A stretch of 64,000 bases of DNA from contig CAACVI010000005.1 in assembly GCA_900659855.1 (NCBI GenBank), forward strand, positions 1-64,000. The letters run 5' to 3'. The notes under the pieces are model-generated. The model worked only from the letters and a program-made list of their open reading frames with translations. It had not been told where the DNA came from and ran no database searches. A program made the position numbers and the translations under genes. Shown piece by piece: positions 4,419-43,841 of this stretch (position 1 is its first letter; every line of letters begins with the position of its first letter). The stretch is from Candidatus Desulfarcum epimagneticum. Lineage in GTDB: Bacteria; Desulfobacterota; Desulfobacteria; Desulfobacterales; CR-1.

Positions 4419-4440
4419 CCATTCGAATCGATCCGATCTA

Positions 4441-4605: not shown

Positions 4606-4640
4606 AGCGTCCGACGCTTAAGACGCTTAAAGAGTGAGAC

Positions 4641-8920: not shown

Positions 8921-8951
8921 AGACAAACCCAATCGAATCAAGGAGGATTCA

Positions 8952-10892: not shown

Positions 10893-10921
10893 ATTCCTGA
10901 TCGATTCCTAATGGAGAAAAT

Positions 10922-24323: not shown

Positions 24324-24971
24324 ATGGCCGAATTCCCAAAACGCGATATCTCCCGGTTCAGCGGATACGTAAAAAAAGCCGATCGTGAAAAGCTTCACGG
24401 CCACAAAGGCGTCGCGGTCTGGCTCACCGGTTTTTCCGCCTCGGGCAAATCCACCATCGCCCACCATCTTGAAAAGCGTCTTTATCAAATGGGGCGCTCA
24501 ACCTATGTGCTGGACGGGGACAACGTCCGATATGGACTGTGCGCCGATCTGGGCTTTTCCCCATGCGACCGCTCCGAAAACATCCGCCGAATCGGGGAAA
24601 TGGCCCGCCTTTTTGTGGACTCGGGAATCATCCTGCTCGCCGCCTTTATCTCACCGGACAGAATCGACAGACAAAAAATTCGAGAGACCATCGGGGAAGA
24701 GAATTTTATCGAGGTGTTTGTGGACTGCCCCATCAGCGTCTGCCGCCTCCGCGACCCCAAAGGGATCTACCAGAAGGCCCTGTCCGGGGAGATTAAAAAT
24801 TTCACAGGAATCTCAGCGAAATACGACCCGCCCGAACGACCCGACATCACCATCCGGTCCCATGAGGAGACCGTGGATTCCGCCGTGACCCGGCTGATCG
24901 CCCATATGAAAAAACGCCGGTTTATCCCGGGATCGGAAGTCCGGACCCAAAGCGTGCGGCAACACGCCTGA
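24324..24971 (+). CDS. cysC: Adenylylsulfate (APS) kinase
   Basis: A 215-residue kinase that phosphorylates APS to PAPS, the sulfuryl donor for sulfotransferases. It shows the P-loop GFSASGKST (about 35-43), [24 protein letters not shown], the effector-loop DRxxxR-type region ([12 protein letters not shown]), [11 protein letters not shown] and [15 protein letters not shown]. Length is usual for CysC. Sulfate reducers normally reduce APS directly, so a dedicated PAPS-forming kinase here points to sulfation, not assimilation. That fits the four sulfotransferase-like genes within 10 kb. It is the undamaged counterpart of 8221-8920 and carries the same promoter. Confidence 0.95.
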
Positions 24972-25002: not shown

Positions 25003-25902
25003 ATGAAGAAAACGGCAAAACGCGTCATTTTTTCACTCATCCTTGTCTTAAGCGTCGCCTCGTTTTCATTTGCGGGAAACAGCGGAGATCTGGGAAAATG
25101 GTGGCTGAAAAATCCCCTGGAGTATGACCCCATGCCCGATCGGCTGCTCCATCATTTCGAAGGCTCGTATTCCTATGGCGGAACAAGCGGCAATGTGGAA
25201 GTGACCTCCCACACGGGAAAAGCCAACCTGACTTTAAGAAAAAATATACTGACCAGCGTCACCGTGTATTCGGTCAAATACAACGACACGGAAAACGCGC
25301 TCCGGGGGTCCGAGTCCCATTTAAACGACCAGTTCTTCAGGCAGGGTTTCCGCTTTGCCCTAACGGATAAATTAGAGGCCGTTGTCGGGGGCGAATGGAA
25401 AAAAAACGCGTCCATGTATCTTGAAAATCGCCTGGTTTACTATGGCGGATTTCGTTTTTCAGCCATTCGTTCGGAAAATGTGAAAATTTTCCTGGCGGGC
25501 TTTTATTCCAATACCAACACTGAATATATGAACAGCAAAATACAGAACATACGGACTTACGCCAGTTTTCCCTCGGTGGACGAATACGAGTCCGGAGGTT
25601 TGTTTCTGCGTCAGACATTGAACTGGAAAATAACCGACGCCATCACATTAAATGAAGCGTGCTCATATTTAAATTTCCTGGACAATTCCGATTATTACAC
25701 CCTGGATCTAAATCTGAGCCTGAACTTTATGATCACCAAGTCCGTGTCTTTTCTGGTGTCCTACGATATGACCTACGAACAAAACTCGTTTATCAAATCC
25801 TTGGGGGATTATCTTGATGAGCGCAGGGCTGCGGGACGTTTCGCCGGGGAAATAGAGAACAGAGACTCAAAGATTGGCGTGGGCATCCAGATCTCTTTTT
25901 AG
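25003..25902 (+). CDS. Predicted outer-membrane beta-barrel protein
   Basis: 299 residues, with a clear signal peptide (VIFSLILVLSVASFSFAG, cleavage near residue 24) followed by many alternating polar/aromatic beta strands. It ends in IGVGIQISF, a C-terminal Phe typical of outer-membrane barrels. The pattern resembles DUF481-type proteins. Good ribosome-binding site (AAAGGAGG). It starts 31 bases after cysC and is followed by a terminator. It could be an outer-membrane channel for the local product; this is inference from position only. Confidence 0.68.
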   Translation: MKKTAKRVIFSLILVLSVASFSFAGNSGDLGKWWLKNPLEYDPMPDRLLHHFEGSYSYGGTSGNVEVTSHTGKANLTLRKNILTSVTVYSVKYNDTENALRGSESHLNDQFFRQGFRFALTDKLEAVVGGEWKKNASMYLENRLVYYGGFRFSAIRSENVKIFLAGFYSNTNTEYMNSKIQNIRTYASFPSVDEYESGGLFLRQTLNWKITDAITLNEACSYLNFLDNSDYYTLDLNLSLNFMITKSVSFLVSYDMTYEQNSFIKSLGDYLDERRAAGRFAGEIENRDSKIGVGIQISF

Positions 25903-25981: not shown

Positions 25982-26001
25982 CTCCGGAAACGAAGGTGGC
26001 C

Positions 26002-26973
26002 ATGCGGAATTTTCACGCCGTGAAAAACCCTGATGCAATATCCCGCATTGACCCAGCCCTTCTGGCGACCCTCAGGCGGCGGGCAAAAGTCAACCGGAGA
26101 AAAAGGGATTTCGCTCCTCCTTCATTTGAAAAGCCGGTTTTTATCGTCTCGGCCCCCCGGTCGGGCAGCGCTCTTCTGTTTGAGCGCCTGTCCGCCCTGC
26201 CGGGGGTCTGGACCACCGGCGCCGAAAGCCACGAGCTGATTGAGGGAATCCGGCCGCTTCATCCCCGGGCGAAAAATTACGCCTCCAATGTCCTGACCGA
26301 AAAGGACTGCGCGCCTGAAATCGCCGAAACCCTCCGGCGGCGTTTCGCCATGGACATGGCGGACCGGGACCGCCGAAGATACACGGATATGCCTGGGGAT
26401 CAAAGGCCCTCAAAAGTCCGACTGGTGGAAAAAACCCCGAAAAACGCCCTGCGTGTCTCTTTTTTAAAAGCGGTGTTTCCCGACGCGCTCTTTGTGTTTC
26501 TTTACCGGAACCCGCGGCAGAGCGTGGCCAGTCTGATGGAAGGCTGGATATCCGGCCGTTTTGTGGCCTATCGGAATTTGCCCGGAAGAGCCGCCCCCTG
26601 GAGCTTTCTTTTAATCCCCGGCTGGCGGCGCCTTGAAAACGCCTCTTTGGCCGAAATCGCCACGCGCCAGTGGGAAACGGCGAACCGTTTTATTGTGGAC
26701 AGCCTGAAAACGCTTCCGAAATCCGAACGGCTCTTCATCCGTTACCGGGACCTGGGCCGGAAAACGGAAAAAACCATCCGGAAAATCAGCGCCTTCGCGG
26801 GCCTTGAAACAGACGCCCGGGCGGAGAAAATCCTCAAGCCCCCCCCTCCCCTGTCGTCTTCGACCCTGTCTCCCCCGGCGCCCGGAAAATGGAAAAAACA
26901 CGAAAAGGAGATCATGGCCCTGGCGCCGAAATGGTCCCCGGTGGATGAGATGATCCGGAGAGGAGTCTTTTGA
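26002..26973 (+). CDS. Sulfotransferase-family protein
   Basis: A protein of about 323 residues with FIVSAPRSGSALLFERL (5'-phosphosulfate loop, about residue 48-64) and FVFLYRNPRQSVASLMEGW (3'-phosphate motif). This is the PAPS-dependent sulfotransferase type with a PRSG loop. The ATG at 26002 is preferred over the in-frame GTG at 25996 because AAGG lies at better spacing. It overlaps the next gene by four bases. GC-rich, unlike the sulfotransferase genes at 16263 and 28985, so the family members probably have different histories. Confidence 0.83.
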   Translation: MRNFHAVKNPDAISRIDPALLATLRRRAKVNRRKRDFAPPSFEKPVFIVSAPRSGSALLFERLSALPGVWTTGAESHELIEGIRPLHPRAKNYASNVLTEKDCAPEIAETLRRRFAMDMADRDRRRYTDMPGDQRPSKVRLVEKTPKNALRVSFLKAVFPDALFVFLYRNPRQSVASLMEGWISGRFVAYRNLPGRAAPWSFLLIPGWRRLENASLAEIATRQWETANRFIVDSLKTLPKSERLFIRYRDLGRKTEKTIRKISAFAGLETDARAEKILKPPPPLSSSTLSPPAPGKWKKHEKEIMALAPKWSPVDEMIRRGVF

Positions 26974-28262
26974 AAAAAGAAAAAACCCGCCCCTGGCCCT
27001 CGCGAAAGGGCTTTGTCACCAACTATCCCCATTTTCGGAAATGGAAAAAAGCGCCGCCCCCGGAAATGAGCGGAACCGGGCCCGTCCATATCTACCTGCA
27101 CATCCCTTTCTGCATTCAAAGATGCGCCTACTGCTATTACAGCGCCGTCCCCCTGAAAGAGGCCGGGGGAGCCAAAGAGCTGGGCGAATATGTCGACGCC
27201 CTGCGCCGTGAGATCAAGACCGCGTCGCGCCGCTTTCATCTGCGGGAACGGCCCGTCGCCTCCATTTACTTCGGGGGCGGCACCCCCACCGTCATGAACG
27301 AGGGCCATTTCTCCAGGATCATCGACGCCCTTCATGAAAATCTCGACATCCAGGACCCCGAGTTCACTGTGGAGGCCGAGCCTGTGACGCTTGCCCGAAA
27401 AAAGGCCGATTTCCTGAAAAGCGTCGGGGTCAACCGAATCAGCCTGGGCGTTCAATCCTTTTGCGACGACATCATTCAACTGTGCGGCCGCCTGGACACG
27501 GCTGAAAAAGCCTTGAGGGCTGTGGAGATCGCCTCACAAACCGGCGCCGTGGTGAACATCGATCTTTTGAGCGGCCTTGCGGGCGAGACCATGAATTCCT
27601 GGTCCCACACCCTGGAGCAGGCGCTTTTGACCGGCGCTGAAAGCGTCACGGTCTATAAAATGGAGTTGCACGCCAACACGGCGTATTACCGCAAAATCCG
27701 CGCCGGCGCCATTCAAATCCCGTCGGACGACGAGGAGCTTGAATTCATGCGCCACGCCCTGGGGCGGTTTGAGGAAAAAAATTACCTGCCCTGGAGCTTT
27801 TTCACGTTCACCCAAAACGGCCGGCATGAAAACATATACGCCTCAGGCATCTGGAGGGGCGAGGACTGCCACGCCTTCGGCGTCTCGGGATTCGGGGGCA
27901 TGGGGGAGTGGCTTTTCCAAAACACCAGCGACAGGAAGAAATACCTCGCCCTTGCCGGGGCCGGGGAGATTCCCATTCAGCGGGGACATCGCATGACCGG
28001 AAAGGACCGAATGATCCGGGACGTTCTTCTATGCATGAAGCTGACCCGGCTGGATATGCGAAACTTTGAAGACCGGCATGGACTGAGCCTTGAGTCCCTG
28101 TGCCCAAAGGCGCTGGAAGAGCTGGAAGACGAGGGATTTATTCGTCTGGAAAACAGCCATATCGAAATGACCCGAAAGGGCATTCTTTACGGAGATCACA
28201 CCGGGAAAAGACTGGCCGCGCCCCTGATGGAATTGGATTCCAACTCTCCGCAAACACAATAA
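26970..28262 (+). CDS. HemW/coproporphyrinogen-oxidase-like radical SAM protein
   Basis: 430 residues with the radical SAM cluster motif CIQRCAYC (about 48-55) after the typical YLHIPF, then IYFGGGTPTVM, VNRISLGVQSF and NIDLLSGLAGET. This is the HemN/HemW-like family. HemW itself is a heme chaperone, but many relatives in gene clusters act in tailoring reactions such as methylation or cyclopropanation. The start is TTG at 26970, overlapping the upstream stop by four bases. Clustering between sulfotransferase genes argues against a housekeeping hemW. Confidence 0.8.
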   Translation: MKKEKTRPWPSRKGFVTNYPHFRKWKKAPPPEMSGTGPVHIYLHIPFCIQRCAYCYYSAVPLKEAGGAKELGEYVDALRREIKTASRRFHLRERPVASIYFGGGTPTVMNEGHFSRIIDALHENLDIQDPEFTVEAEPVTLARKKADFLKSVGVNRISLGVQSFCDDIIQLCGRLDTAEKALRAVEIASQTGAVVNIDLLSGLAGETMNSWSHTLEQALLTGAESVTVYKMELHANTAYYRKIRAGAIQIPSDDEELEFMRHALGRFEEKNYLPWSFFTFTQNGRHENIYASGIWRGEDCHAFGVSGFGGMGEWLFQNTSDRKKYLALAGAGEIPIQRGHRMTGKDRMIRDVLLCMKLTRLDMRNFEDRHGLSLESLCPKALEELEDEGFIRLENSHIEMTRKGILYGDHTGKRLAAPLMELDSNSPQTQ

Positions 28263-28302: not shown

Positions 28303-29001
28303 ATGCTCATATCCCACACCCACCAATTTATCTTTTTCCACGTCCCCAAGGCGGGCGGGATCAGTGTCCGGGAAGCGCTGGGTCCATACGCGCAAGAGCC
28401 TGAAAGATTTAAAATAAACCGCCCCCCCAAACGGATCGGCGGGGCCCCCAACCCCGTGTATGAAATGTGGGATGCCGCGCTTCTGCACGCCAAAGCCCGG
28501 GACGCCAAAAAAGAGCTTCCGAAGCATGTTTACGACGGTTTTTACAAATTCGCCTTTGTGAGAAACCCGTGGGACTGGCATGTGTCCATGTATCACTTTA
28601 TACGAAAAGAAAAAAACCACATCCGGCATGATCGGGTCAAATCCATGACTTTTGAAAAATACCTTGAATGGGCGATCCAAACCCCAAACCCCTTTCCAAA
28701 GGGCGCGTCAAAATTTCAGAAGGATATGGTGACGGATGAAAACGGAAAAATCATCGTGGATTTTATCGGAAAATATGAAAACCTGGAAAGCGATTTCCAG
28801 CATGTGTGTCCCATTTTGAATATTAAAGCCGAGCTTCCCCATTTAAATAAAAGCGCGCATAAAGACTATCGGACATATTATAATGCGAAAACGATCAAAA
28901 TGGTGAAAGATGGCTTTAAAGAGGATATCGAACTGTTCGATTATTCGTTTAATTCGCAAAAAAATCCAGGGGAAACGCTCGACAATGTTTATTTCTCATA
29001 A
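28303..29001 (+). CDS. Sulfotransferase-family 2 protein
   Basis: 232 residues. The N-terminus FFHVPKAGGISVREAL (about 9-24) is the PAPS 5'-loop of the carbohydrate-type sulfotransferase family (HIPKTGGTS pattern). FAFVRNPWDWHVSMYHF (about 84-100) is the 3'-phosphate motif. No signal peptide or membrane anchor, so it is cytoplasmic, where CysC would supply PAPS. Its end overlaps the next sulfotransferase start by 17 bases. Confidence 0.82.
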   Translation: MLISHTHQFIFFHVPKAGGISVREALGPYAQEPERFKINRPPKRIGGAPNPVYEMWDAALLHAKARDAKKELPKHVYDGFYKFAFVRNPWDWHVSMYHFIRKEKNHIRHDRVKSMTFEKYLEWAIQTPNPFPKGASKFQKDMVTDENGKIIVDFIGKYENLESDFQHVCPILNIKAELPHLNKSAHKDYRTYYNAKTIKMVKDGFKEDIELFDYSFNSQKNPGETLDNVYFS

Positions 29002-29785
29002 ATACAAAGTGATATTTGTTCATATACAAAGAACCGGCGGCAGTTCTATCCACAGGGCCTTTCAGAAATGCGATCCTGACTTGGTTGAAACCCTGCCCGT
29101 TCATTCCGCCGCGAAAAGGACAAAACACTCTTTTATCACGGATATAAAACACACAGTGGAGCATGACATTTTTCAAAATTATTTAAAATTTTGTGTGGTG
29201 CGAAATCCGTTTGACAGAATGGTTTCATGGTATCATATGGTGATCGGCAAAAAAGGGGACGATCAGGCCATGTTTAAAATACGTGATAAAAACAAACGCC
29301 TTAATATTTTTTTTAAAGGGATTAAGTTTTTGAACAATGCAAATTTACCCCTGAAAAAAAATTTATTAAATTATTGGACCCAACTTTTTCTTTTAATTGA
29401 AAAAAGTGACAACAAATTTGCCATACAGGCCGCTAAATCCGGAACGGACACAGCGCTTGAGCTAAAAAAAAAATCTAAAAATTTTAAGGAATTCATTTTT
29501 TCAACTCAAAATCCTGAAGATGTCTTTTTTAAAAAATTTCGCCTGAATCAGTTGGACTATATTTCAGACAAAACGCATATTTTAGTGGATAAAATATTGA
29601 GATTTGAAAATCTAAACGCTGAATTTAATAATTTAGGAAAAAAAATAGCTTTTGAAGGAGCGCTGTCACAAATCAATAAATCGGCTGACAGGAAAAGCTA
29701 TGAGAGTTACTACGACGACAGGACAAAAAAAATGATCCTGAAAAGATTCAAGAAAGATTTTGAACACTTCGGGTACCACTTTTGA
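28985..29785 (+). CDS. Sulfotransferase-family 2 protein
   Basis: 266 residues if started at the ATG at 28985, which places the PAPS loop VIFVHIQRTGGSSIHRAF at about residue 9-26 as in the previous gene. FCVVRNPFDRMVSWYHMV carries the 3'-phosphate motif. The start overlaps the preceding gene, so the two are coupled. It is AT-rich and rich in Lys/Asn/Phe compared with the GC-rich neighbour upstream, a sign of separate origin. The substrate is unknown. Confidence 0.82.
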   Translation: MFISHKYKVIFVHIQRTGGSSIHRAFQKCDPDLVETLPVHSAAKRTKHSFITDIKHTVEHDIFQNYLKFCVVRNPFDRMVSWYHMVIGKKGDDQAMFKIRDKNKRLNIFFKGIKFLNNANLPLKKNLLNYWTQLFLLIEKSDNKFAIQAAKSGTDTALELKKKSKNFKEFIFSTQNPEDVFFKKFRLNQLDYISDKTHILVDKILRFENLNAEFNNLGKKIAFEGALSQINKSADRKSYESYYDDRTKKMILKRFKKDFEHFGYHF

Positions 29786-29797
29786 AAACGGTTTTGT

Positions 29798-30265
29798 TTG
29801 CCAATACGAACTTTTGAAGGAGGCATTCACACGCCCGCCATTGTGCATTACCCCGGATCTAAAGTCTCGGGCGTCACCTGGTCGCGCCTGACTTCGGTGA
29901 TGGATATAGGCCCCACAATACTTGAAATGGCCGGAATTCAGCAAGCGGCTGAATCTTCTTCTTCGAGTCCGCAGCAAGGCGTTTCCATGGCGGCTGTGTT
30001 CAAAGGCGACATAACCGAAGACCCAGAAAGAATAATCGGTTGGGAATTTGACGGCAAGAAAGGGCTGCTCAAAGGCAACTGGACTCTTTCCCAGCAGGGC
30101 AATGACGAGCATGTCTATCTTTTTAATCTTAAAGAAGATCCTTTTGAAGCCCATGATCTTTCATCAGCCAACCCTCAAAAATTTGCCGAACTCTGGAAAG
30201 CTTATGAGGAGTATGAGAAAAATAACGGCGTCATCCGGGTTCCAACTGTAAAGCCCAAAAAGTAA
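29798..30265 (+). pseudogene. Arylsulfatase C-terminal fragment
   Basis: A frame of 155 codons encodes the C-terminal third of a type I sulfatase: TFEGGIHTPAIVHYPG, DIGPTILEMAGI, GWEFDGKKGLLKGNWTL and YLFNLKEDPFEAHDLS. The N-terminal part with the C/SxPxR formylglycine site and metal ligands is absent. The frame begins immediately after the sulfotransferase stop. It therefore cannot be an active sulfatase. It may record replacement of a sulfatase gene by the sulfotransferase genes. Confidence 0.8.
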
Positions 30266-30468: not shown

Positions 30469-32307
30469 ATGACTGAACCCGAAAAATCCGCCGACGCCGC
30501 TTTTGAAAATTCAGGCCAACAGAAAAAAACGCCTTCATCTTTTTGGAAAAGCGTAAGAAGCAATATAAAACTGCGGCGCAGGACTCTTCCCGCGGAAACT
30601 TCAAAGCGTCCGGAAAGAATCCCGCTGTCCTTTGGACAGGAAAGGCTCTGGCTTGTTGAACAGCTGGGGCTGGAAATTCCTGTTCATAACCTGCGCGCGG
30701 TTTTTCACCTCAAAGGCGCCCTTGATGTGGCCGCATTTCAAAAAAGCATAATGAAAATCACACGGCGCCATGAAGCCCTTCGAACCTCATTCCCGAATTT
30801 TGAAGGGAAACCTTTTCAGTCTGTCTCGGAAAAGATTGATTTGGAATGCCGGGTTGAAAAATTATCCGAGCTTTCCGATAAAAATCGAGAAGATAAAATC
30901 TCCGAAACAGTCTCCGGAGAAGCCTTAAAATTTTTTGATCTTAAACAAGCGCCATTGTTGCGAATAAAACTCCTTCAGATAGCGCGGGATGAATATATTT
31001 TTATCAAAACAACCCACCATATCATAAATGACAAATGGTCAGACAGTATCTTTATGAGAGAGCTGGCGTTGCTTTACACTTCTTTTTCCCAAAACAGGCC
31101 GGCTCCGTCCCTGCCCGAGCTTCCCGCGCAGCACGCCGACTTTGCCTGCTTTGAGCGCAAACAATTCGAAAACAATGGATTTAAATCGCATCTTGAATAC
31201 TGGCAAAAATTGCTGAAGGGGGGTTTTTCTCCATTGTGCCTGCCGGTTGATGATCCATCGGCAAAGAGCGCCGATTACCGGGGAAAATCTCACACTATCG
31301 GCATTCCCGAAACTTTTTGCGCCGCGCTTGAAGTTTTAAGCCGCCGGGAAGAAATCTCCATGTTTGTCATTTTTGTCTCGGCGTTCAGCCTATTGCTTTA
31401 TCAATATTCCGGACAAAATGATTTTATAGTATGTTATCCTGTCGCCTCCCGAAATCGCGCGGAGCTAAGAAATCTCATCGGTTATTTTAACAACCTGCTC
31501 CCCCTGCGCGTCAATTTTAAAAAAAACACGAGTTTCCTGGATTTTTTTAAACAGCTTGGCGGCATAACATCAAATTCCACCGAACATCAGGAAATTTCTT
31601 TGAAACATTTGGCGGAATCCATGAATATTCCCGGAATCATTCTGTCCCGCGTGATGTTTGCCATGCAAAATATTCCAAGTCAACCGTTAAAAATGGGGGA
31701 TATAAACATCACCCCGATGGAACGGGAGGAAAACATATCCAATTTCGATCTGTCTCTCTCTATAAAAAAAAAGGGGGGGGAATTTGTCGGCATATTGCGT
31801 TATAAAACCGAACTTTTCAAAAAATCCACCATTGAAAAATTTTCGAAAAATTTTATAGAGATGCTCGGCAAAATCACATCCGACCCGGATCAGCCGCTCT
31901 CAGATTTGCCCCTGTTCAAAAAAAAATCCCCGGAAACCTGGAGGGAGTCGGATAATGACGCGCCCGTGACAAACGAAAGCGAGGGAGAAGAGATTCGTCA
32001 TATCTGGGAAGAGGTTCTCGGCATTGAGCAAATCGGCATTCATACCGATCTCTTTCGGCTTGGCGCGCGTTCCCTCGCAATCGTGTCTATCTGCGCCAAA
32101 ATGAGTGAAATATTCAATCGGAACATTTCAGTCGCGGAATTATTGAAATATCCGACCATAAGTGAAATGAAAAAATTTCTGGACGCAGAGCAAAATCACA
32201 AAAAGGAATCTTCATATTCATCGCCGAAAAGAATCAATCTGCAAAGAAAAGCCATGAGCCGCCGGAAAAAACTACTGAAAAACATTAGAAGGCTGAACAA
32301 TGACTGA
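30469..32307 (+). CDS. NRPS-like condensation domain fused to a carrier domain
   Basis: 612 residues. A condensation domain (about 45-480) begins with IPLSFGQERLWLVEQL and contains HHIINDKW (about 183-190), the HHxxxDG motif with Lys for Gly. A carrier domain (about 500-575) follows, with the phosphopantetheine serine in LGARSL (Ser about 535). There is no adenylation domain, so its monomer must be loaded in trans, possibly by the ligase at 38755. It overlaps the PKS start by eight bases. Together they form a C-PCP / KS-AT-ACP-TE line. Confidence 0.87.
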   Translation: MTEPEKSADAAFENSGQQKKTPSSFWKSVRSNIKLRRRTLPAETSKRPERIPLSFGQERLWLVEQLGLEIPVHNLRAVFHLKGALDVAAFQKSIMKITRRHEALRTSFPNFEGKPFQSVSEKIDLECRVEKLSELSDKNREDKISETVSGEALKFFDLKQAPLLRIKLLQIARDEYIFIKTTHHIINDKWSDSIFMRELALLYTSFSQNRPAPSLPELPAQHADFACFERKQFENNGFKSHLEYWQKLLKGGFSPLCLPVDDPSAKSADYRGKSHTIGIPETFCAALEVLSRREEISMFVIFVSAFSLLLYQYSGQNDFIVCYPVASRNRAELRNLIGYFNNLLPLRVNFKKNTSFLDFFKQLGGITSNSTEHQEISLKHLAESMNIPGIILSRVMFAMQNIPSQPLKMGDINITPMEREENISNFDLSLSIKKKGGEFVGILRYKTELFKKSTIEKFSKNFIEMLGKITSDPDQPLSDLPLFKKKSPETWRESDNDAPVTNESEGEEIRHIWEEVLGIEQIGIHTDLFRLGARSLAIVSICAKMSEIFNRNISVAELLKYPTISEMKKFLDAEQNHKKESSYSSPKRINLQRKAMSRRKKLLKNIRRLNND

Positions 32308-35300
32308 AGAAGAAAGAGGAGACTCCCAGGAAGCAATCGCTATTGTAGGCATGTCCGGGCGCTTTCCCGGGGCGGAAAATCTGGATGAATTCTGGCAAAA
32401 TTTAAAAAACGGGGTGGAATCCATCACTTTTTTTAATGACGAGGACGCGTTGGCCGCAGGCACGGATCCGAAGTTATTAAAAAACCCGAAGTTTGTCAAA
32501 GCCCATGGCGTGTTGGAAAACATCGAGATGTTCGACGCCGATTTTTTTGATATGACGCCCAGGGACGCCACGTTTCTTGATCCCCAGCACAGACTTTTTC
32601 TGGAATGCGCGTGGGAAGCCTTGGAAAACGCGGGTTACAACTCGGAAACTTACCCGGGACGCATTGGGGTTTTCGCGGGAACCTCCTTCAGCACATACCT
32701 TCTCAGGAACATACTGCCCAATAAATTAGTGGATTTTCCCACCAGCGACCGCCTTGATATGGCTTTGACCAATCATAAAGACACCATGCCTATGCGAGTC
32801 TCCTTCCATATGAACCTGACAGGGCCGAGCATAAGCCTGGGAACCACATGCTCCACATCCCTTGTGGCGGTTCACCTCGCGGCCCAAAGTCTGCTGACTT
32901 ATCAATCCGATATGGCCATCACCGGCTCAAGCTTCCTGAGAGTCCCTCCCAAAGAAGGGTATCTTTACCAGGAAGGAATGATTTATTCCCCGGATGGTCA
33001 TATCAGAACATTTGACGCCGATTCCAAAGGAATCGTCACAGGCGCCGGCGTCGGCGCGGTCGTTATGAAAAGGGTTGACGACGCGATCTCGGACAGGGAT
33101 TATATCCATGCCGTTATTAAGGGAACAGCGGTGAACAATGACGGGTCCACAAAAATCGGCTACACCGCGCCAAGTATAAGCGGACAGGCTGAGGCGATCT
33201 CTGAAGCGATCTTAATGGCGGGGATAGACTCCAGCGCCATCACCTACATCGAAGCGCATGGAACAGGCACTGAACTGGGCGACCCGGTGGAAGTCCGGGC
33301 TCTTGTCAAAGCGTTCAGCCGCGCGTCTGTTAATGGCGAAAAGAAAAAACATTTTTGCGGCATAGGTTCCGTTAAAAGCAATATCGGACATCTGAATCAC
33401 GCGGCGGGAATGGCGGGCCTGCTGAAAACTGTTTTGGCGTTAAAACATCAATCATTGCCGCCCACCCTGAATTTTCGAAAACCCAATCCTGACATCGACT
33501 TTGACAACAGTCCGTTTTACGTCAATACCACTCATAAAAAATGGGACACCCAAGGCTCCCCCAGGCGCGCGGGTGTCAATGCGTTCGGAATCGGGGGAAC
33601 AAACGCGCATGTCGTTCTGGAAGAGGCGCCGACGCAAAAACCATCAAAAGAAACAAGACCTTATAAATTGATAACGCTTTCGGCCAAAACGGACGCGGCC
33701 CTCAGCGCTTTGACGGACAACCTGGCGGGTCACCTGGAAAAACATCCGGATGCAAATTTTGCGGACGTGGCCTATACCCTTCAGGTGGGAAGACGGACTT
33801 TTAAGCATCGTCAATTTTTAGTCTGCAAAGACTCCGCTGACGCGACAGCCAAAATCAGATCGCAAAATTTCGGACAAACCCGCGCGGAGTTAAACAAATC
33901 CGCAAATCAGGGTGTGGCGCTTATGTTTCCCGGGCAGGGAGCCCAGCACATCAACATGGGATCAGAACTTTATGAGACCGAACCTGTGTTTCGTGAACAA
34001 ATTGATATTTGCGCAAAAATCCTTGCGCCTCAAATGGACCTTGATTTACGCGACATTCTTTATCCGCGCAAAAAAGAAGCGAGGGAAGCCGCACGCCGGC
34101 TGGAACAGACAGCCATTACCCAGCCCGCTCTTTTTGTCATAGAGCACGCCCTGGCGCGCCTGCTGATGTCATGGGGCATACATCCCGAAGCGATGATCGG
34201 GCATAGCATAGGCGAATATGTCGCCGCATGCCTGGCGGAAGTTCTTTCACTCGAAGACGCTCTCATGCTTGTGGCCGAGCGCGGGCGGATGATACAAAAA
34301 CTGCCCGGCGGCGCAATGCTTGCGGTCGCTCTTTCGCCGGAGGAATCGGCTCCCTTTATCAATGAAAAACTTTCCATGGCCGTGATAAACGGGCAGTCTC
34401 AATGTGTGATCAGCGGAAGAGCCGAAGATGTGAAAAATTTAAGGGACAGCCTTAAGAAAAAACGCATTGTCTGCCATCTTCTGAGCGTTTCCCATGCGTT
34501 TCATTCTGATATGATGGACCCGATCATCAATCCTTTTGCCGAACGGGTCGAAAAAACAACCCTGAATCCTCCCCGTATTCCGTATCTGTCCAATGTCACC
34601 GGCGCTTGGATCACAGCGGAGGAAGCCACTGATCCACGATACTGGTCGACCCACCTGCGCTCGACGGTTTGCTTTGACAAAGGTCTGGGCCTCCTGCTTC
34701 GGGATGACAAACGAATTTTGCTTGAAGCGGGTCCCGGTCGAACATTGTCCGTCCTGGCCAGGCGGCATCCTGATAAACAGCCGGATCAAATTGTGATGGC
34801 CTCGATGCGCCATCCGAGTGAAAAGACTCAACCTGATTCCGCATTCCTGCTGACTTCCCTCGGAAAACTCTGGAGCGCCGGGGTTGATATAGACTGGCCG
34901 AAATTCCACGCCCATGAGGAACGTTATCGTCTCCCTCTGCCGACCTATCCTTTTCAAAAAAGACGGTATTGGATTGATCAGCCAAAACCCGGACATGCTG
35001 AAAAAAAGCGGACGTCTTTAACGCCGTTTGCCGTCCCCGGTGATACGGAACAGAAAGAAAAGACAAATATTTTATCCGCCAAACCGCCGAGAAACGCAAA
35101 CGAACAAAAAATCGCTGAAATATGGGAAAATGTGCTGGGAGTCCGGCAGCCGGGAATACATGACGAGTTTTTTGAACTGGGCGGAGACTCTTTAAGCGCG
35201 AGCAAACTGGTCGCAAAACTCTGCCAATCCTTTAAAATAAATTTATCCGTCAAAACATTTCTCAGCGCGCCGACAATCGCCGAGTCGGCCAAATGGATCA

Positions 35301-36154
35301 CAAAATCTCTGGAAAACATTCCTGATGAAAAGCAGGAGTCCCTGCCCTCCCTCGTCAGACTTAAAAAAGGCTCCTGCCCGGAAAAAAATGTCTTCCTTGT
35401 TCACCCCATAGACGGATATGTTTACTTATACAAGGACCTGGCCCGCCATCTTCACTCCGAACATGATGTGTATGGTTTCCAGTCTCCATATTTGGAAAAA
35501 GAGACAAACGCGTTTGTGACCATTGAAGATATGGCGGCGTATTACATCGAAATCATGAAAACCCATCAACCGGAAGGCCCATATATTTTAGGCGGCTTCT
35601 CTTTTGGAGGCGTCATTGCTTTTGAAATGGCGCGGCGACTTCGCCGATCCGGTCAAATGCCAAAACTTCTTTTTATGATCGACACGCCCGCCCCGGGCGA
35701 GATTGTATTCGATCTGCGGGATGATCTTCGAATCCTTATATTTATTATGAAATATCTGTTTGGGCTGGACATCATAAAAGAGGCCCTGGCTTTGGATAAG
35801 CTGCAAAAACTTGATTTTGAAGAACAAATATCCCACATTTTAAAACATGCGAAAAACAGCGAAAGACTTGACGGCGCTTTTGGAACGCCGGAGCTTCGCC
35901 GAATTTTGTCCGTCATAAAGTTTAATATGAAGGCGATGCGAAAATATTCGCCCGCTGTTTATCCCGGGAGCTTCATTTACTTCAGGGCGAAAGAGCCGTG
36001 GGAAAAAGGCGCTTTGCTTCATCCGGAATCTTTCTGGGTTCAACATGCGGATAAAGACGTTGAGATCATAACGGTTCCGGGAAATCATATCACCATGAAC
36101 CAAGCGCCGAATATGACAAAAATGGTTAATAAAATCAATAAGGCTTTGAATTAA
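32300..36154 (+). CDS. Type I polyketide synthase module, KS-AT-ACP-TE
   Basis: 1284 residues. The ketosynthase (about 10-440) has its active cysteine in GTTCSTSL (Cys 184) and histidines in EAHGTGTE (320) and NIGHLNHA (364). The acyltransferase (about 538-830) has GQGAQ, GHSIGE (Ser 636) and HAFH (732-735), the signature for malonyl-CoA. The carrier has GGDSL (Ser 964). The type I thioesterase (about 1025-1284) has GFSFGG (Ser 1101) and a late GNHITM histidine. There is no reducing domain, so a beta-keto unit would be kept unless modified in trans. The TE makes this the releasing module. It directly follows the C-PCP gene. Confidence 0.95.
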   Translation: MTEEERGDSQEAIAIVGMSGRFPGAENLDEFWQNLKNGVESITFFNDEDALAAGTDPKLLKNPKFVKAHGVLENIEMFDADFFDMTPRDATFLDPQHRLFLECAWEALENAGYNSETYPGRIGVFAGTSFSTYLLRNILPNKLVDFPTSDRLDMALTNHKDTMPMRVSFHMNLTGPSISLGTTCSTSLVAVHLAAQSLLTYQSDMAITGSSFLRVPPKEGYLYQEGMIYSPDGHIRTFDADSKGIVTGAGVGAVVMKRVDDAISDRDYIHAVIKGTAVNNDGSTKIGYTAPSISGQAEAISEAILMAGIDSSAITYIEAHGTGTELGDPVEVRALVKAFSRASVNGEKKKHFCGIGSVKSNIGHLNHAAGMAGLLKTVLALKHQSLPPTLNFRKPNPDIDFDNSPFYVNTTHKKWDTQGSPRRAGVNAFGIGGTNAHVVLEEAPTQKPSKETRPYKLITLSAKTDAALSALTDNLAGHLEKHPDANFADVAYTLQVGRRTFKHRQFLVCKDSADATAKIRSQNFGQTRAELNKSANQGVALMFPGQGAQHINMGSELYETEPVFREQIDICAKILAPQMDLDLRDILYPRKKEAREAARRLEQTAITQPALFVIEHALARLLMSWGIHPEAMIGHSIGEYVAACLAEVLSLEDALMLVAERGRMIQKLPGGAMLAVALSPEESAPFINEKLSMAVINGQSQCVISGRAEDVKNLRDSLKKKRIVCHLLSVSHAFHSDMMDPIINPFAERVEKTTLNPPRIPYLSNVTGAWITAEEATDPRYWSTHLRSTVCFDKGLGLLLRDDKRILLEAGPGRTLSVLARRHPDKQPDQIVMASMRHPSEKTQPDSAFLLTSLGKLWSAGVDIDWPKFHAHEERYRLPLPTYPFQKRRYWIDQPKPGHAEKKRTSLTPFAVPGDTEQKEKTNILSAKPPRNANEQKIAEIWENVLGVRQPGIHDEFFELGGDSLSASKLVAKLCQSFKINLSVKTFLSAPTIAESAKWITKSLENIPDEKQESLPSLVRLKKGSCPEKNVFLVHPIDGYVYLYKDLARHLHSEHDVYGFQSPYLEKETNAFVTIEDMAAYYIEIMKTHQPEGPYILGGFSFGGVIAFEMARRLRRSGQMPKLLFMIDTPAPGEIVFDLRDDLRILIFIMKYLFGLDIIKEALALDKLQKLDFEEQISHILKHAKNSERLDGAFGTPELRRILSVIKFNMKAMRKYSPAVYPGSFIYFRAKEPWEKGALLHPESFWVQHADKDVEIITVPGNHITMNQAPNMTKMVNKINKALN

Positions 36155-36167
36155 ATGAGTAACATTT

Positions 36168-38738
36168 ATGAAATATGACAAAACCATACATTTAACTTTA
36201 AATGGCCAGAAAATTGAATACTCGGGAAGCGGAAAAGTAAACCTTCTTAATTGGTTACGGACGTCGCAAAAAATAAAAAGTGTAAAAAACGGCTGTTCAA
36301 AAGAGGGCGTCTGCGGCGCCTGTTTAGTTGAAATAAATAAAAAACCAAAATTATCCTGTTCAGTCCTGATGGAAAATATAGATGAAGCGAATATTATGAC
36401 TATAGAAGGAATTCCCGATCAAATTAGAACCGTTTTAGGTCGGGCATTTGTGGCGTCCGGCGCTGTTCAATGCGGATTCTGCAGTCCGGGCATGCTTATG
36501 AGAACGAATATATTGCTTCAAAAAAACCCCGCCCCTTCGAGGGAAGAAGTGACAAACGCTATAAAACCGCATTTGTGCAGATGCACCGGATATGTAAAAA
36601 TAGTTGACGCTATTTTACTTGCTTCGGAAAAAATGAGAAAGAAAGAAAAAATAAACTTTGAAAAAACAAGTTTAGGAAAATCCGCCCCCAAATACCAGGC
36701 ATTGGACAGAGCGCTTGGAGTTCCTCTATTTATTGATGATCTGGAGATGGATCACATGGTGTTCGGAGCATTATGCTTCAGTGAATATCCGCGCGCCAAA
36801 ATATTGAAGATAGATACCTCAAAAGCCGAAGCCATGGCGGGAGTTATAAAAGCGCTGACGGCTAAAGATATACCCGGAAAACGACATTCAGGCCTGAATG
36901 TAAAAGATTGGCCCGTATATATTGCCGAGGAAGAAACCACCGCATACATCGGCGACGTGCTGGCTTCTGTTATTGCGGAATCTGAAGAAACAGCCAGAAA
37001 AGGAGTCGATGCGATAAAGGTTGAATATGAAGTTTACGAACCTTTTACTGATCCTGAATCCGCGCTGGAAAGTGATATAAAATTACATGAAAAAGGGAAT
37101 GTTCTCAAAGAGATCAATATCCGCCGCGGAGATAATATAGAAAAAATTTTTAATTCCTCGGCGCATGTTGTCTCGGACACATTCAAAACACAAATGGTCG
37201 AACATGCTTTTTTGGAGACTGAATCCTGTGTGGCATCATATGAAAACAATAAACTCACCGTATATTCGCAATCCCAAAGTATATATCGAGAAAGAGAACA
37301 GATAGCTGAAATACTCGACATTAAAAAAGAAGATGTCAATATTAAATTCATTCCAACGGGCGGAGCTTTTGGCGGCAAACTAAATATTACGGTTCAGGCT
37401 CATGGCGCATTGGCCGCATACTATTTGAAGCAACCTGTTAAAATAAAACTAAATCGATCCGAATCTTTAAGAATGCACCCTAAAAAGCACCCCATGTATA
37501 TGGAGTATAAATTAGCCTGCGACGAAGAAGGTAAATTCACAGGTCTTCATGCAAGGATATTGGGAGATACAGGCGCGTATGCTTCTCAAGGAATCCCTGT
37601 GGCGATTAAGGCGGCGACGCATGCGGGGGGAGCCTATTTCATTCCCAATGTGGATATCGTGTCCAAGGTCGTTTACACAAACAACCCTGTCGCGGGCGCT
37701 ATGCGCGGTTTTGGGGTAAGCCAGGTCACTTTTGCCATCGAAAGCTTGATTGATGAATTATGTGAAACAGCAAAATTTGACAAATGGGAAATAAGGTATA
37801 AGAATGCCTTGGAACAGAACCTGACAACCGCAGGCGGAGACAGGTTAAGGAAAAAAACAGGATTAAAAAAAGCTCTTGACATACTTAAAAAACAATACAA
37901 AAATTCAAAATTCTCCGGTATCGCATGCGCCATTAAAAACTGTGGAATAGGCAGCGGCCATCCTGAAATAAGCAGGGTAAAGCTTGAAGTTTTAGAAAAC
38001 GGCAAATTAAAACTATATCATGGCTGGAATGAAATGGGACAGGGCATTGACACCATTTTGCGACAGCTACTGCGCGAACAGATCAAATCCGACGAAATAT
38101 CCGAAATAGAAGTGGTCGTAGCCACTGAACATGAAACATTAGGCGGGGGCACAGTGGCGAACCGTGGAACTTTTTTGGCAGGCAATTCACTTCTGGACGC
38201 CGCAAAATATCTAAAAAAAGATATGAAGAAACATGGCGGATTAAAAAAGCTTGTCGGAAAGACATACGATGGGGAATATATTTGCGCTAAAACAATTCCC
38301 ATTAATTCAAAAAAAGCGGGAATTCAACATTTTGCCTATAGTTTTGCGGCGCAGCTCGTCATATTATCCGATAAGGGGAAAATTCAAAAAATTGTCGCGA
38401 TCCATGACAGCGGCAGAGTAATTAATAAAAATCTTTTCGAAGGACAAGTTCAGGGAGGGGTAATCATGGGGCTGGGTTATGCGATGAGTGAAAACCTTCT
38501 CCTTGACAAAGGACAAATAGTCAATGCCAAACTCGGCAAACTGGGTTTGCTTCGTTCTGTTGATGTGCCTGAAATTGAAGTTATTCCCATAGAAATTGAT
38601 GACATCGACGGTCCTTTCGGGGCCAAAGGAGTCGGTGAGATAACGGCGATTCCGGTCGCGCCCGCTGTCGCTTCGGCATATAGGGCATTTGATGGACAAA
38701 AAAGAACAGAGTTGCCTCTAAAACCGCCTGAACAATAA
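36168..38738 (+). CDS. Molybdenum aldehyde oxidoreductase (Mop/xanthine oxidase family)
   Basis: 856 residues. The N-terminal plant-type [2Fe-2S] domain has Cys 43, 48, 51 and about 63 (CSKEGVCGAC..SC). A second helical [2Fe-2S] domain has QCGFC and CRCTGY. Two molybdopterin-binding domains follow, with AFGGK, AMRGFG and the catalytic glutamate in GAKGVGE near the end. This is the single-chain architecture of Desulfovibrio aldehyde oxidoreductase (about 907 residues), which oxidises aldehydes to acids with no FAD domain. It starts 14 bases after the PKS and precedes the acyl ligase, so it may make the acid that is activated. AT-rich. Confidence 0.9.
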   Translation: MKYDKTIHLTLNGQKIEYSGSGKVNLLNWLRTSQKIKSVKNGCSKEGVCGACLVEINKKPKLSCSVLMENIDEANIMTIEGIPDQIRTVLGRAFVASGAVQCGFCSPGMLMRTNILLQKNPAPSREEVTNAIKPHLCRCTGYVKIVDAILLASEKMRKKEKINFEKTSLGKSAPKYQALDRALGVPLFIDDLEMDHMVFGALCFSEYPRAKILKIDTSKAEAMAGVIKALTAKDIPGKRHSGLNVKDWPVYIAEEETTAYIGDVLASVIAESEETARKGVDAIKVEYEVYEPFTDPESALESDIKLHEKGNVLKEINIRRGDNIEKIFNSSAHVVSDTFKTQMVEHAFLETESCVASYENNKLTVYSQSQSIYREREQIAEILDIKKEDVNIKFIPTGGAFGGKLNITVQAHGALAAYYLKQPVKIKLNRSESLRMHPKKHPMYMEYKLACDEEGKFTGLHARILGDTGAYASQGIPVAIKAATHAGGAYFIPNVDIVSKVVYTNNPVAGAMRGFGVSQVTFAIESLIDELCETAKFDKWEIRYKNALEQNLTTAGGDRLRKKTGLKKALDILKKQYKNSKFSGIACAIKNCGIGSGHPEISRVKLEVLENGKLKLYHGWNEMGQGIDTILRQLLREQIKSDEISEIEVVVATEHETLGGGTVANRGTFLAGNSLLDAAKYLKKDMKKHGGLKKLVGKTYDGEYICAKTIPINSKKAGIQHFAYSFAAQLVILSDKGKIQKIVAIHDSGRVINKNLFEGQVQGGVIMGLGYAMSENLLLDKGQIVNAKLGKLGLLRSVDVPEIEVIPIEIDDIDGPFGAKGVGEITAIPVAPAVASAYRAFDGQKRTELPLKPPEQ

Positions 38739-38754
38739 AATTTGGTGAAACTTT

Positions 38755-40173
38755 ATGGACAGTATTTGGCAAAAAACAAAAATCGCGACTATCGCGTCTA
38801 ATATAATCACCGATGGCAATATCACATGCCCTTACCAGGATATCCCCAGAATCTTCGCCAAAATCCAAACTTTTTTAGAAAATAAAAATATTGATTTTAA
38901 ATGTCCAGTGATGTTGGAATCTCGAAACTCCGCGTCTTGCGCGCTTCTCATCCTGTATTTTCTGGAACTCGGGCATTCTTTTTTGCTGGTTCCCGAAAGC
39001 CGGGAAAAACCGTCCGCCCCCGCTTTTTGCAAATATATTTTTTCTGTTAATGAGAAAAGTTTGGATAATAACTTAAATCCCGAACAATTCCTGCGTATAT
39101 TGGAAAATAAAAAATATGCCGGCGCAACCCTGAATGATTCAGCAAAACTCTACCTGCGAACTTCAGGCAGCACGGGAAAGCCTAAAATGGCGATCCACTC
39201 CCACGAAAAACTAATCAAAAACGCTTTAAACTGTTTGAATCGTTTGAATATCAAAAGCGATGACAGAGTGGCGATCCCGGTTCCGATTAATCATATGTTC
39301 GGGCTGGGAGCCGCCTTTCTCCCGGCGATAGCCGCGGGCGCCTCCATTGATTTGCAAAAAAGGGCGAATCTGATCAGGTACCTGGACAGAGAAAAAAAAT
39401 TCAACCCGAATATGGCGTTTATGACCCCGGTTTTCTGCGAATCCCTGCTGAAAGGCAGAAGAGAAAAGAGGCCCTACAGGCTGACCGTGTCGGCCGGAGA
39501 CCGGTTAAGGGAAAAAACATTTGAAGGATACCAAGCCATGTTCGGCCCACTGGTCCAGCTCTACGGCAGCACGGAAATGGGGGCCATATCTTCGACAAAA
39601 CCCGACGATCCCTTTGTCGTTCGGAGAGCGAGTGTGGGAAAACCCATGCCGGGCGCGCGAATACGCATTGAGAATTCCCCGGCAAACTCGTCTGACCGAA
39701 CAAAAAAAGAGGGAGATATCTTCTGTTTTCATGAATACGGTTTCGATGGTTATGCCGACGAGCGCGGAAATGTGGCAAGTTTGCCTCCACCAAACGGCTG
39801 GTTTCCGGCAAAAGACCTCGGGAGAATCCGCAGGGACGGACGCCTGGAAGTTCTCGGGAGAGCGGATCAAAGCGTCAACAGACACGGTCTTCTCGTATTC
39901 CTGGCGGACGTTGAAAAAAAGTCTGAATTGATCCAAGGACTCAGCGCCGCCGTCGCGGTTCCGGGGAAAGAGAGCGCGCGGGGCAGGGAACTCATTCTCT
40001 ATTGCGTCGCGGTCCCGGATTCCGGAATCACTGAAAAAAGTGTCCGAAACGTCTGTTTTGACCTGCTTCCCAAAAACGCGGTTCCCGATAAGATAATATT
40101 TTTGGATGACCTGCCTTTTCTGCCAAACGGCAAAGTGGACAGGCAGAAGTTAAATCGTATGGCGACAAAATAG
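38755..40173 (+). CDS. AMP-dependent acyl ligase (ANL superfamily)
   Basis: 472 residues. It has the adenylate-forming motifs LRTSGSTGKPK (about 132-142), QLYGSTEMGA and the C-terminal hinge LEVLGRADQSVNRHG, then LPFLPNGKVDRQKL with the catalytic lysine. Such enzymes activate a carboxylic acid as an acyl-AMP and pass it to CoA or a carrier protein. An acyl carrier protein gene follows 28 bases after its stop, and upstream carriers lack an adenylation domain. This suggests it loads the free ACP or the C-PCP protein. A little shorter than typical ligases (500-560). Confidence 0.87.
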   Translation: MDSIWQKTKIATIASNIITDGNITCPYQDIPRIFAKIQTFLENKNIDFKCPVMLESRNSASCALLILYFLELGHSFLLVPESREKPSAPAFCKYIFSVNEKSLDNNLNPEQFLRILENKKYAGATLNDSAKLYLRTSGSTGKPKMAIHSHEKLIKNALNCLNRLNIKSDDRVAIPVPINHMFGLGAAFLPAIAAGASIDLQKRANLIRYLDREKKFNPNMAFMTPVFCESLLKGRREKRPYRLTVSAGDRLREKTFEGYQAMFGPLVQLYGSTEMGAISSTKPDDPFVVRRASVGKPMPGARIRIENSPANSSDRTKKEGDIFCFHEYGFDGYADERGNVASLPPPNGWFPAKDLGRIRRDGRLEVLGRADQSVNRHGLLVFLADVEKKSELIQGLSAAVAVPGKESARGRELILYCVAVPDSGITEKSVRNVCFDLLPKNAVPDKIIFLDDLPFLPNGKVDRQKLNRMATK

Positions 40174-40200
40174 ATACAATTGATTGGAGGGGTTCAAAAT

Positions 40201-40482
40201 ATGAGCGAGGCTGTCATTAAAAAACTGAAAAAAATAATAGCGGAAGAGTTGGATGTAAATCTTACGGCGGATGAGATAGATGAAAACGCCTCCCTGTTCG
40301 AGGACGGACTGGGGCTGGACTCCATTGTCATCGTGGAGCTGATCGCCCTGGCCGAGGAGCGCTTCGGTTTTTTGCTCTCGGAGGATGAGCTGAATCCCGA
40401 ATCCTTTACCAGCCTCAGGGTTTTCGCGGACGTGATCGCCTCCAAAAGTTCGGACGGCAGGGATTTAACAATCACCTGCTAA
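40201..40482 (+). CDS. Acyl carrier protein
   Basis: A 93-residue acidic protein with the phosphopantetheine attachment motif GLGLDSIVIVEL (Ser 41), followed by the helix LAEERFGFLLSEDEL and a Cys end. The ATG at 40201 is chosen because TTGGAGG lies at good spacing. It ends the run PKS, oxidoreductase, ligase, ACP and is probably charged by the ligase before it. Confidence 0.93.
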   Translation: MSEAVIKKLKKIIAEELDVNLTADEIDENASLFEDGLGLDSIVIVELIALAEERFGFLLSEDELNPESFTSLRVFADVIASKSSDGRDLTITC

Positions 40483-40719: not shown

Positions 40720-41057
40720 AAGGTTTTAAACCTGGCGCATGGAAAAATAAAACCCTCCGGAATCAGGATATGGCCTACTCCTACCAAACGGCGGGAAATT
40801 TTCCACCTTGGAGTTTTCCACCGGCCAGAAAAAAAAGGCCGGCCCTTCTCACGGCCATCGTGGCGGACAGGCCTGTCTATATTTTCGACGAGTGGGCGGC
40901 GGACCAGGACCCGGAGTTCAGGAAACGTTTTTATATGGGCCTGTTGCCGGGGTTTAAAAAACAGGGGAAAACCGTCGTCGCCGTGACCCACGACGACCAT
41001 TACTTCCACGCGGCCGACCGGGTCATCCATCTGGATTACGGAAAATTGTCTCTATAA
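40720..41057 (+). pseudogene. Cyclic-peptide-type ABC exporter C-terminal fragment
   Basis: The region encodes the end of an ATPase domain like those at 4641-7870 and 20670-24071. One frame gives GKFSTLEFSTGQKK (signature). After a frameshift in the A-tract near 40830 another frame gives ADRPVYIFDEWAADQDPEFRKRF and TVVAVTHDDHYFHAADRVI. The membrane domain and Walker A are gone. It is the fifth exporter-type ATPase of the window and marks the right edge of the biosynthetic region. Confidence 0.85.
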
Positions 41058-41157: not shown

Positions 41158-42102
41158 ATGCGAATTTATTTAAAAGAAAAAATAGGCAGCCCGGCCCTTT
41201 TCACGGGAAGAAAAAGAGAGCTGGACTCTTTGCTGAAATGGGTGGAGGGGATTAAAACGGAAATATCCAAAAGCAAAGCCATTATTTCGCGGAGGAAAAC
41301 CGGAAAATCAGCCTTGATGCAGCGGCTTTTCAATATCATGTTTCACCAGAACGGCCAGGTGGTTCCTTTATTATGGCGGATATGACCGAAGGAAACCTTT
41401 TTATATTTCTTCTCTTTTTCAGTCTGTTTACAGGGAAAAAAATTTTCCACTGAAAAAGGGATGCTTGATGTCCTGGACTTTGAGACCCTGGACAAACGCG
41501 GATCCATACGGGGAACATGGATGGAATATATTCACTCCGCCACGGACCGAATCAACGACGCCAATGGAAAAAGAATTATATTGTACATCTGCCAAAATAA
41601 AGAAAGAAAAGTGACCCGGGATGAAATACGAAACGCGCTTGATCTTTCCATGACGGACCGGGAGCTGGAAAAACGTTTAAAAGCCTTTGTGAAAGCCGAT
41701 ATCATCGAACAGGGAACCAGCTATTTCAGTTATCACGCAGTCCAGGACCACATATTCGACAAAGTGTTTCGAGGGGTTTACCAGGAGGAGATCGACGGCT
41801 TTACTCCGGATAAAATAAAAGACGAATACAGAATCCTGTATAAAAAACTCCGGGTGGATGTGTTCGCCAAAGCGGGCGGCGATGCGTATTCTCTTATCGG
41901 GGAAGTGAAAAACAGGAAGAAAAAATTCTCCCTCACAGAGGCCAGAGCTTTTTTCGCAAAAGCCTCGGAGGTCCAAAAGCTGGAAGATATTTCCAAAACC
42001 CTTCTTTTTGTCTTTTCCGCCGCCGGCTTTTACAAAACCGCCATTGATTTTTTTAAAAAAAATGGGATAGCGTTCAGCAATGACAAAAGGTTTTTGGAGT
42101 AA
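41158..42102 (+). pseudogene. DUF234-type ATPase-nuclease, decayed first copy
   Basis: It begins like its intact neighbours (GSPALFTGRKRELDSLLKW, ISRRKTGKSALMQRL). The sequence jumps near 41371 from VVPF to the later MADLTEGNPF region, a deletion of about 580 bases, and then goes out of frame until about 41460. From 41461 the reading frame resumes. A second, in-frame loss of 189 bases (63 residues) joins YKKLR to VDVFAKAGG, compared with 45123-45311 of the copy at 43842. The nuclease-like tail with EVKNRKKKFS is kept. Not functional as an ATPase. Confidence 0.88.
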
Positions 42103-42111
42103 AAAAACACC

Positions 42112-43821: not shown

Positions 43822-43841
43822 ATGTCCCAAAGGAAAATACC

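Follow-up and report, generated by a model that had tools for sequence, protein, structure and literature searches.

The contig CAACVI010000005.1 of Candidatus Desulfarcum epimagneticum shows, at positions 30,469 to 40,482 of the 64,000 nucleotides analysed (hereafter, the window), five core genes encoding a condensation domain fused to a peptidyl carrier protein (C-PCP), a polyketide synthase (PKS) with ketosynthase, acyltransferase, acyl carrier protein and thioesterase domains (KS-AT-ACP-TE), a molybdenum hydroxylase (MoOR), an AMP-forming ligase and a stand-alone acyl carrier protein (ACP). These genes belong to a larger cluster, which extends upstream (about 20.7-40.5 kb) and contains genes encoding a double ATP-binding cassette (ABC) exporter, an adenosine 5'-phosphosulfate (APS) kinase, a DUF481 protein, the sulfotransferases ST325, ST232 and ST291, a HemN-type radical S-adenosylmethionine (SAM) enzyme and a sulfatase remnant. 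The cluster is real, conserved and of a hybrid kind, and it does not represent a new category. It is probably involved in the biosynthesis of a sulfated aryl polyketide, or of an aryl peptide-polyketide, in which a hydroxybenzoic acid, once activated, is joined to one malonate unit; the product taken alone, a sulfated aryl polyketide, is assigned with low confidence. No described cluster with this gene set was found in the literature.

The core genes are all on the + strand within 10 kb, head to tail, with successive junctions of -8, 13, 16 and 27 bases (the first is an overlap, and the last is counted to the ATG at 40201). A sequence-only reading of the region had described this packing, with overlaps or gaps below 30 bases, and the lack of adenylation and ketoreductase domains. 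Both agree with the open reading frame (ORF) coordinates and the Pfam domains: no adenylation (A), ketoreductase, dehydratase or enoylreductase domain was found with Pfam in the five core genes. The catalytic motifs sought in the core are all intact (HHxxxD, the carrier serines, the Cys-His-His of the KS, GHSxG of the AT and GxSxG of the TE). That reading did not mention the HemN-type enzyme, the sulfotransferases, the exporter or a link to aeruginoguanidine-like clusters.

The C-PCP and polyketide synthase pair

The C-PCP and PKS genes are found as a pair of touching genes in four other genomes (G075, G402, G398 and G399), two belonging to Desulfobacterales and two to Methylococcaceae. They touch or overlap in all five clusters, and this recurrence indicates that the arrangement is not due to chance. 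Full-length orthologs in these four genomes show 39-44% identity for C-PCP and 53-61% for the PKS. The PKS of the window shows Cys184, HGTGT and KSNIGH in the KS, GHSIG and HAFH (malonyl type) in the AT, GGDS in the ACP and GFSFG in the TE. Nearly all cluster genes of the window have counterparts in a single neighbourhood of G075 (Desulfobacteraceae bacterium S08.Bin136, locus L055), which contains genes encoding the HemN-type enzyme, ST325, ACP, DUF481 protein, C-PCP, PKS, an O-methyltransferase, a SPASM radical SAM enzyme, a sulfatase, ST291, ST232, a chorismate lyase, the ligase and an ABC exporter.

A good match to C-PCP was found in 12 of the 21 genomes searched, the window's included. 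It is encoded as a protein of its own in Methylococcaceae and Desulfobacterales, and in several cyanobacteria it is fused behind a thioester reductase domain in one ORF (R-C-PCP). Ten C domains form one clade with 99% support (SH-aLRT), in a tree built without the reference subtypes LCL, DCL and starter. HHxxxD is retained throughout the clade, and the glycine of HHxxxDG is replaced in all ten members (K, R, R, M, M, I, I, V, V and F); the C domains of two large nonribosomal peptide synthetases (NRPSs) elsewhere in the window's genome retain it. The lysine of HHIINDK, read earlier from the sequence as a change that might affect substrate or activity, is present as described, but this phylogeny does not bear out its significance, since the position is relaxed in the whole clade. 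For the same reason, and because HHxxxD is retained, an inactive C domain was rejected.

In hybrid NRPS-PKS systems each PCP is served by an adenylation domain, located in cis or elsewhere in the cluster; in the window and its sister clusters only the aryl ligase was found. No amino-acid A domain is present in the five C-PCP/PKS clusters, within the sequence stretches examined, nor in the Aphanizomenon-type R-C-PCP clusters. This lack, and the clade-wide loss of the glycine, favour an alternative without any amino acid, in which ACP and PCP would both receive one and the same aryl acid from the ligase, and the C domain would either couple two aryl units or simply hand the acyl group on from ACP to PCP. 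However, the condensation domain is otherwise normal and retains HHxxxD, which suggests real amide or ester formation, and some of the 20 AMP-binding matches in the genome could act in trans. Loading of both carriers with one aryl acid is thus rated as rather unlikely, and an amino-type acceptor loaded in trans is assigned to the PCP with low confidence.

The aryl cassette and its relatives

The ligase shows intact A3 to A10 motifs, including the lysine of NGK, and its orthologs have 42-53% identity. An orthologous stand-alone ACP (38-67%) follows or adjoins it in Cyanobacteria, Gammaproteobacteria, Desulfobacterota, Myxococcota and Bacteroidota. Loading of the carriers in trans by the ligase had been proposed from the sequence. 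For the free ACP this is very probably correct, on the ligase-ACP neighbours across several phyla and the lack of an A domain in cis, and the overall support for aryl-ACP loading is good; loading of the PCP in this way is considered less likely. The best general matches of the ligase are CoA ligases, as expected if it made an aryl-CoA for catabolism, like a benzoate-CoA ligase, next to an unrelated ACP. However, all of them score far below the model cut-offs, and the orthologous ACP follows or adjoins the ligase in all the groups just named, which makes a catabolic role very unlikely.

In G075, G402, Methylococcaceae and cyanobacteria, a chorismate lyase gene adjoins the ligase or is part of the cassette, and it is of the Rv2949c type in many loci; G398 and G399 also contain the enzyme. 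The acid is therefore most likely 4-hydroxybenzoate. Neither chorismate lyase family was found in the window's genome, so 4-hydroxybenzoate would come from elsewhere in this organism, or the acid differs.

A ligase-profile scan of named genomes shows relatives in Cyanobacteria (Aphanizomenon, Dolichospermum, Xenococcus, Trichodesmium and Spirulina), Methylococcales, Thiomargarita, Halobeggiatoa, Desulfobacterota and Sorangium, and more distant ones in Chitinophaga and Pseudoalteromonas. Most ligase loci that are not cut short also contain the ACP, the HemN-type enzyme and sulfotransferases, and there is good support for placing the window in this ligase-ACP-HemN-sulfotransferase cassette family. 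In the ligase tree, the window is near Xenococcus, Halobeggiatoa and two Desulfobacterales, with weakly supported forks. The tree does not closely match species lines, which suggests transfer without proving it. Plasmid records contain no ligase relatives and only distant relatives of the C domain.

The HemN-type enzyme has a HemN_C domain and a CxxxCxxC motif retained in 19 relatives, and matches NocN in the PDB (9p2u, E 4.9e-24). With these motifs and its similarity to a proven member, it is probably a class C (HemN-like) radical SAM ring methyltransferase. Orthologs of ST325 (43-52%) are present in the cassettes of most relatives and those of ST232 (48-66%) often adjoin chorismate lyase; the ST291 ortholog shows 40% identity in G075 and 32-35% in Methylococcales. 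APS kinase genes are also located beside the relatives L054, L076, L103, L109 and L132. Sulfation and ring methylation are assigned to the pathway with moderate confidence. In nosiheptide biosynthesis, NosI, NosJ and NosN provide a precedent in which a ligase loads a free carrier and the ring is methylated on that carrier (PMC5585349). The window would likewise use a ligase, a free carrier and HemN-type methylation of a carrier-bound aromatic acid; the nosiheptide enzymes and NocN of nocathiacin differ in acting on the indole of a side ring in ribosomally synthesized and post-translationally modified peptides, without sulfation and without a PKS.

Aeruginoguanidines combine prenylated arginines with a 4-hydroxyphenyl unit that is sulfated and 3-(hydroxy)methylated. 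Genomes called Microcystis-like, from short repeats 92% identical to Microcystis plasmids, show the ligase-ACP-HemN-ST325 cassette and ST232 amid NRPS modules, a thiamine diphosphate enzyme, a reductase, a class-III aminotransferase and a cis-prenyl diphosphate synthase, a gene set which we take to be that expected for the aeruginoguanidine (agd) cluster. The Microcystis-like cluster would thus correspond to agd, as judged by gene content. The window's ligase, aryl carrier, HemN-type enzyme, ST325 and ST232 are orthologous to those of these clusters (45-64% to L126-L129). The window differs in having C-PCP and KS-AT-ACP-TE in place of NRPS modules and in lacking chorismate lyase. The reductase, thiamine diphosphate enzyme, aminotransferase and prenyl genes, present in L126/L127, are not among the annotated window genes. 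The agd cluster of Microcystis is a 34-kb NRPS cluster (PMC10304443). The match to agd-like clusters suggests that the HemN-type enzyme acts as a ring methylase and the sulfotransferases on ring hydroxyls. In L127, positions 3484-6929 show four ORFs of about 270 amino acids, candidate aeruginoguanidine prenyltransferases, for which no Pfam or NCBIfam match was found.

The exporter shows 61% identity to the exporter adjoining the ligase in G075 and 59% in G402. In both genomes it follows the ligase, and in the window this place contains an exporter remnant. A 44% homolog of the DUF481 protein is directly upstream of C-PCP in G075, and a BBP2 porin has that place in G399. The sulfatase is full length in G075 and other relatives; the window retains, directly after ST291, only the part corresponding to residues 419-570 of the 582-amino acid G075 protein (53%). 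The G075 sulfatase shows a lipoprotein-like signal at its start and a Ser-type formylglycine motif (STPSR), and the adjoining SPASM radical SAM enzyme could be an anaerobic sulfatase maturase. With the sulfotransferases placed in the cell and the sulfatase beyond it, it may be speculated that the product is exported in sulfated form and then uncaged. Since the sulfatase of the window is broken, the product there would stay sulfated unless another sulfatase acts.

The molybdenum hydroxylase

MoOR shows two [2Fe-2S] domains and MoCoBD_1/2, and no FAD domain was found with Pfam. It scores 859.6 bits against TIGR03311 (selenium-dependent xanthine dehydrogenase, cut-off 830.45) and 452 bits against the Mop model NF045668 (cut-off 1100), so plain Mop family membership was rejected. 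Although the Mop aldehyde oxidoreductase of Desulfovibrio (1dgj, 1sij) also has two [2Fe-2S] domains and a molybdenum cofactor in one chain without FAD, the earlier label of Mop-like gives way to a position nearer the TIGR03311 family, whose domain order MoOR shares. Its nearest homolog outside the clusters, in G1019 (51%), is among purine-catabolism-type genes: amidohydrolases, a carbamoyltransferase, an amino acid kinase, an M20 peptidase, a PALP enzyme and a large YgfK-like flavin/Fe-S protein. Haft and Self list neighbours of this kind for selenium-dependent hydroxylases (PMC2276186).

Unlike TIGR03311 enzymes, MoOR is in a biosynthetic cluster and shows L405 and K481 in place of the purine-binding residues E802 and R880 of the bovine enzyme. 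The 70% ortholog of the G402 cluster, located upstream of the HemN gene, a different place from that in the window, also shows Leu and Lys, whereas the homologs of G1019 and G926 retain Glu and Arg. In human xanthine oxidase, Val and Met substitutions at the same two positions reduce purine activity and confer aldehyde-oxidase activity (PMC3509653). The most likely origin of MoOR is a purine hydroxylase that was recruited to act on another substrate; oxidation of an aldehyde and hydroxylation of an aromatic ring are both plausible, and the reaction is assigned with low confidence. The sequence-only reading had the oxidoreductase convert an aldehyde into the acid that is loaded. Such an oxidation is possible, given the lost purine residues; that it would feed the ligase is less well supported, since G402 carries both MoOR and chorismate lyase. 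A simple substitution of chorismate lyase by MoOR was rejected on the same co-occurrence.

An ordinary xanthine dehydrogenase present in the operon by chance, and outside the pathway, would agree with the TIGR03311 score and with the three clusters in which MoOR was not seen. It is distinctly unlikely, considering the ortholog at another place inside the G402 cluster, the loss in both cluster copies of residues that the nearest purine-context homolog retains, and gaps of only 13 and 16 bases to the neighbouring genes.

Proposed pathway, gene layout and meaning

In the proposed pathway, the ligase would adenylate the aromatic acid, most likely 4-hydroxybenzoate, and transfer it to the stand-alone ACP, where the HemN-type enzyme would C-methylate or hydroxymethylate the ring and the sulfotransferases would sulfate ring hydroxyls with 3'-phosphoadenosine 5'-phosphosulfate (PAPS) supplied through the APS kinase. 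The C domain would then pass the ACP-bound aroyl group on to the PCP site, where it would most likely be received by the trans-loaded amino-type acceptor, plain transfer being less likely; the KS would take over, the AT would add one malonyl unit, left unreduced, and the TE would release the product, which the ABC exporter and the outer-membrane protein would send out. MoOR, remodelled from a purine hydroxylase, would act on a substrate of the pathway, probably on an aldehyde or on an aromatic ring. The genes, their intact motifs, the conserved neighbourhood and the lost purine residues of MoOR are read directly from the sequences, and the acid, the reaction order, the loading of the PCP, the MoOR reaction and the product are inferred.

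Several points weigh against this pathway: the lack of an amino-acid A domain in the clusters, the lack in the window's genome of a chorismate lyase as a source of 4-hydroxybenzoate, the restriction of MoOR to two of the five clusters (G075, among other relatives, lacks it), the identification of the agd-like cluster being limited to gene content, and the rearrangement seen in the truncated sulfatase and the exporter remnant, by which the window copy may be partly degraded. A decayed cluster, from which nothing is made any longer in this organism, would account for a sulfatase reduced to its C-terminal quarter, the exporter remnant, the missing chorismate lyase and the transposases on both sides. 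However, the core enzymes are all full length with intact motifs and the upstream exporter is complete, and complete decay is considered unlikely.

Table 1. Features of the cluster in the window
Feature	Position	Strand	Evidence
Double (two TM-NBD units, transmembrane and nucleotide-binding) cyclic-peptide-type ABC exporter	20670..24071	+	TIGR01194, 533.7 bits (cut-off 286.2)
APS kinase (PAPS supply)	24324..24971	+	TIGR00455, 249 bits (cut-off 138.7)
DUF481 outer-membrane-type protein	25003..25902	+	PF04338
Sulfotransferase ST325 (Sulfotransfer_3)	25996..26973	+	PF13469; orthologs in relatives
HemN-type radical SAM enzyme, probable class C ring methyltransferase	26970..28262	+	PF04055 and HemN_C
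Sulfotransferase ST232 (Sulfotransfer_2)	28303..29001	+	PF03567; orthologs in relatives
Sulfotransferase ST291 (ORF opens at 28910)	28985..29785	+	PF03567
Sulfatase C-terminal remnant, catalytic part gone	29798..30265	+	Match to G075 sulfatase
C-PCP protein, HHIINDK	30469..32307	+	Pfam Condensation (2.6e-88), PP-binding
KS-AT-ACP-TE PKS, malonyl-type AT motifs	32300..36154	+	ketoacyl-synt, Acyl_transf_1, PP-binding, Thioesterase
MoOR, 2x[2Fe-2S]-Moco hydroxylase, probably xanthine-dehydrogenase-derived	36168..38738	+	MoCoBD_1/2, two [2Fe-2S] domains
AMP-forming ligase, predicted aryl-ACP ligase	38755..40173	+	PF00501 (AMP-binding); orthologs, tree
Stand-alone carrier protein, predicted aryl carrier, GLGLDS	40201..40482 (listed ORF opens at TTG 40180)	+	PF00550
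Remnant of a second exporter, C-terminal NBD	40770..41057	+	74% nucleotide match to 23811-24029

The cluster is flanked by ISNCY-type and IS21-type transposase genes (14433-15941 and 48324-50452). Between the transposase and the exporter, a stand-alone condensation-domain protein (17675-19021) is grouped with a sulfotransferase (16263-17159) and two small proteins; no counterpart of this group was found in the related loci. Positions 8366-13818 contain a second APS kinase, a metallophosphatase-like protein and two B12-binding radical SAM enzymes, and similar radical SAM genes adjoin the ligase in G127. Downstream, positions 41166-45560 show tandem copies of an ATPase-like protein of about 570 amino acids, two full and one broken; the one copy tested has no Pfam match.

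To our knowledge, sulfate reducers have so far yielded few natural products. The cluster links a Desulfobacterales operon to the aromatic-starter cassette of bloom-forming cyanobacteria, a cassette which, in different phyla, is joined to NRPS as well as to PKS back ends. Tentatively, these loci may represent an undescribed cluster family of anaerobic sulfate reducers and methanotrophs, making sulfated aryl polyketides through an A-less C-PCP and a KS-AT-ACP-TE synthase, some members with a purine hydroxylase as tailoring enzyme and some with an exported lipoprotein sulfatase and its maturase for uncaging outside the cell. The family presents two testable problems: the working of a C-PCP without an A domain, and the turn of a xanthine-dehydrogenase-type enzyme to biosynthesis, marked by a two-residue signature.

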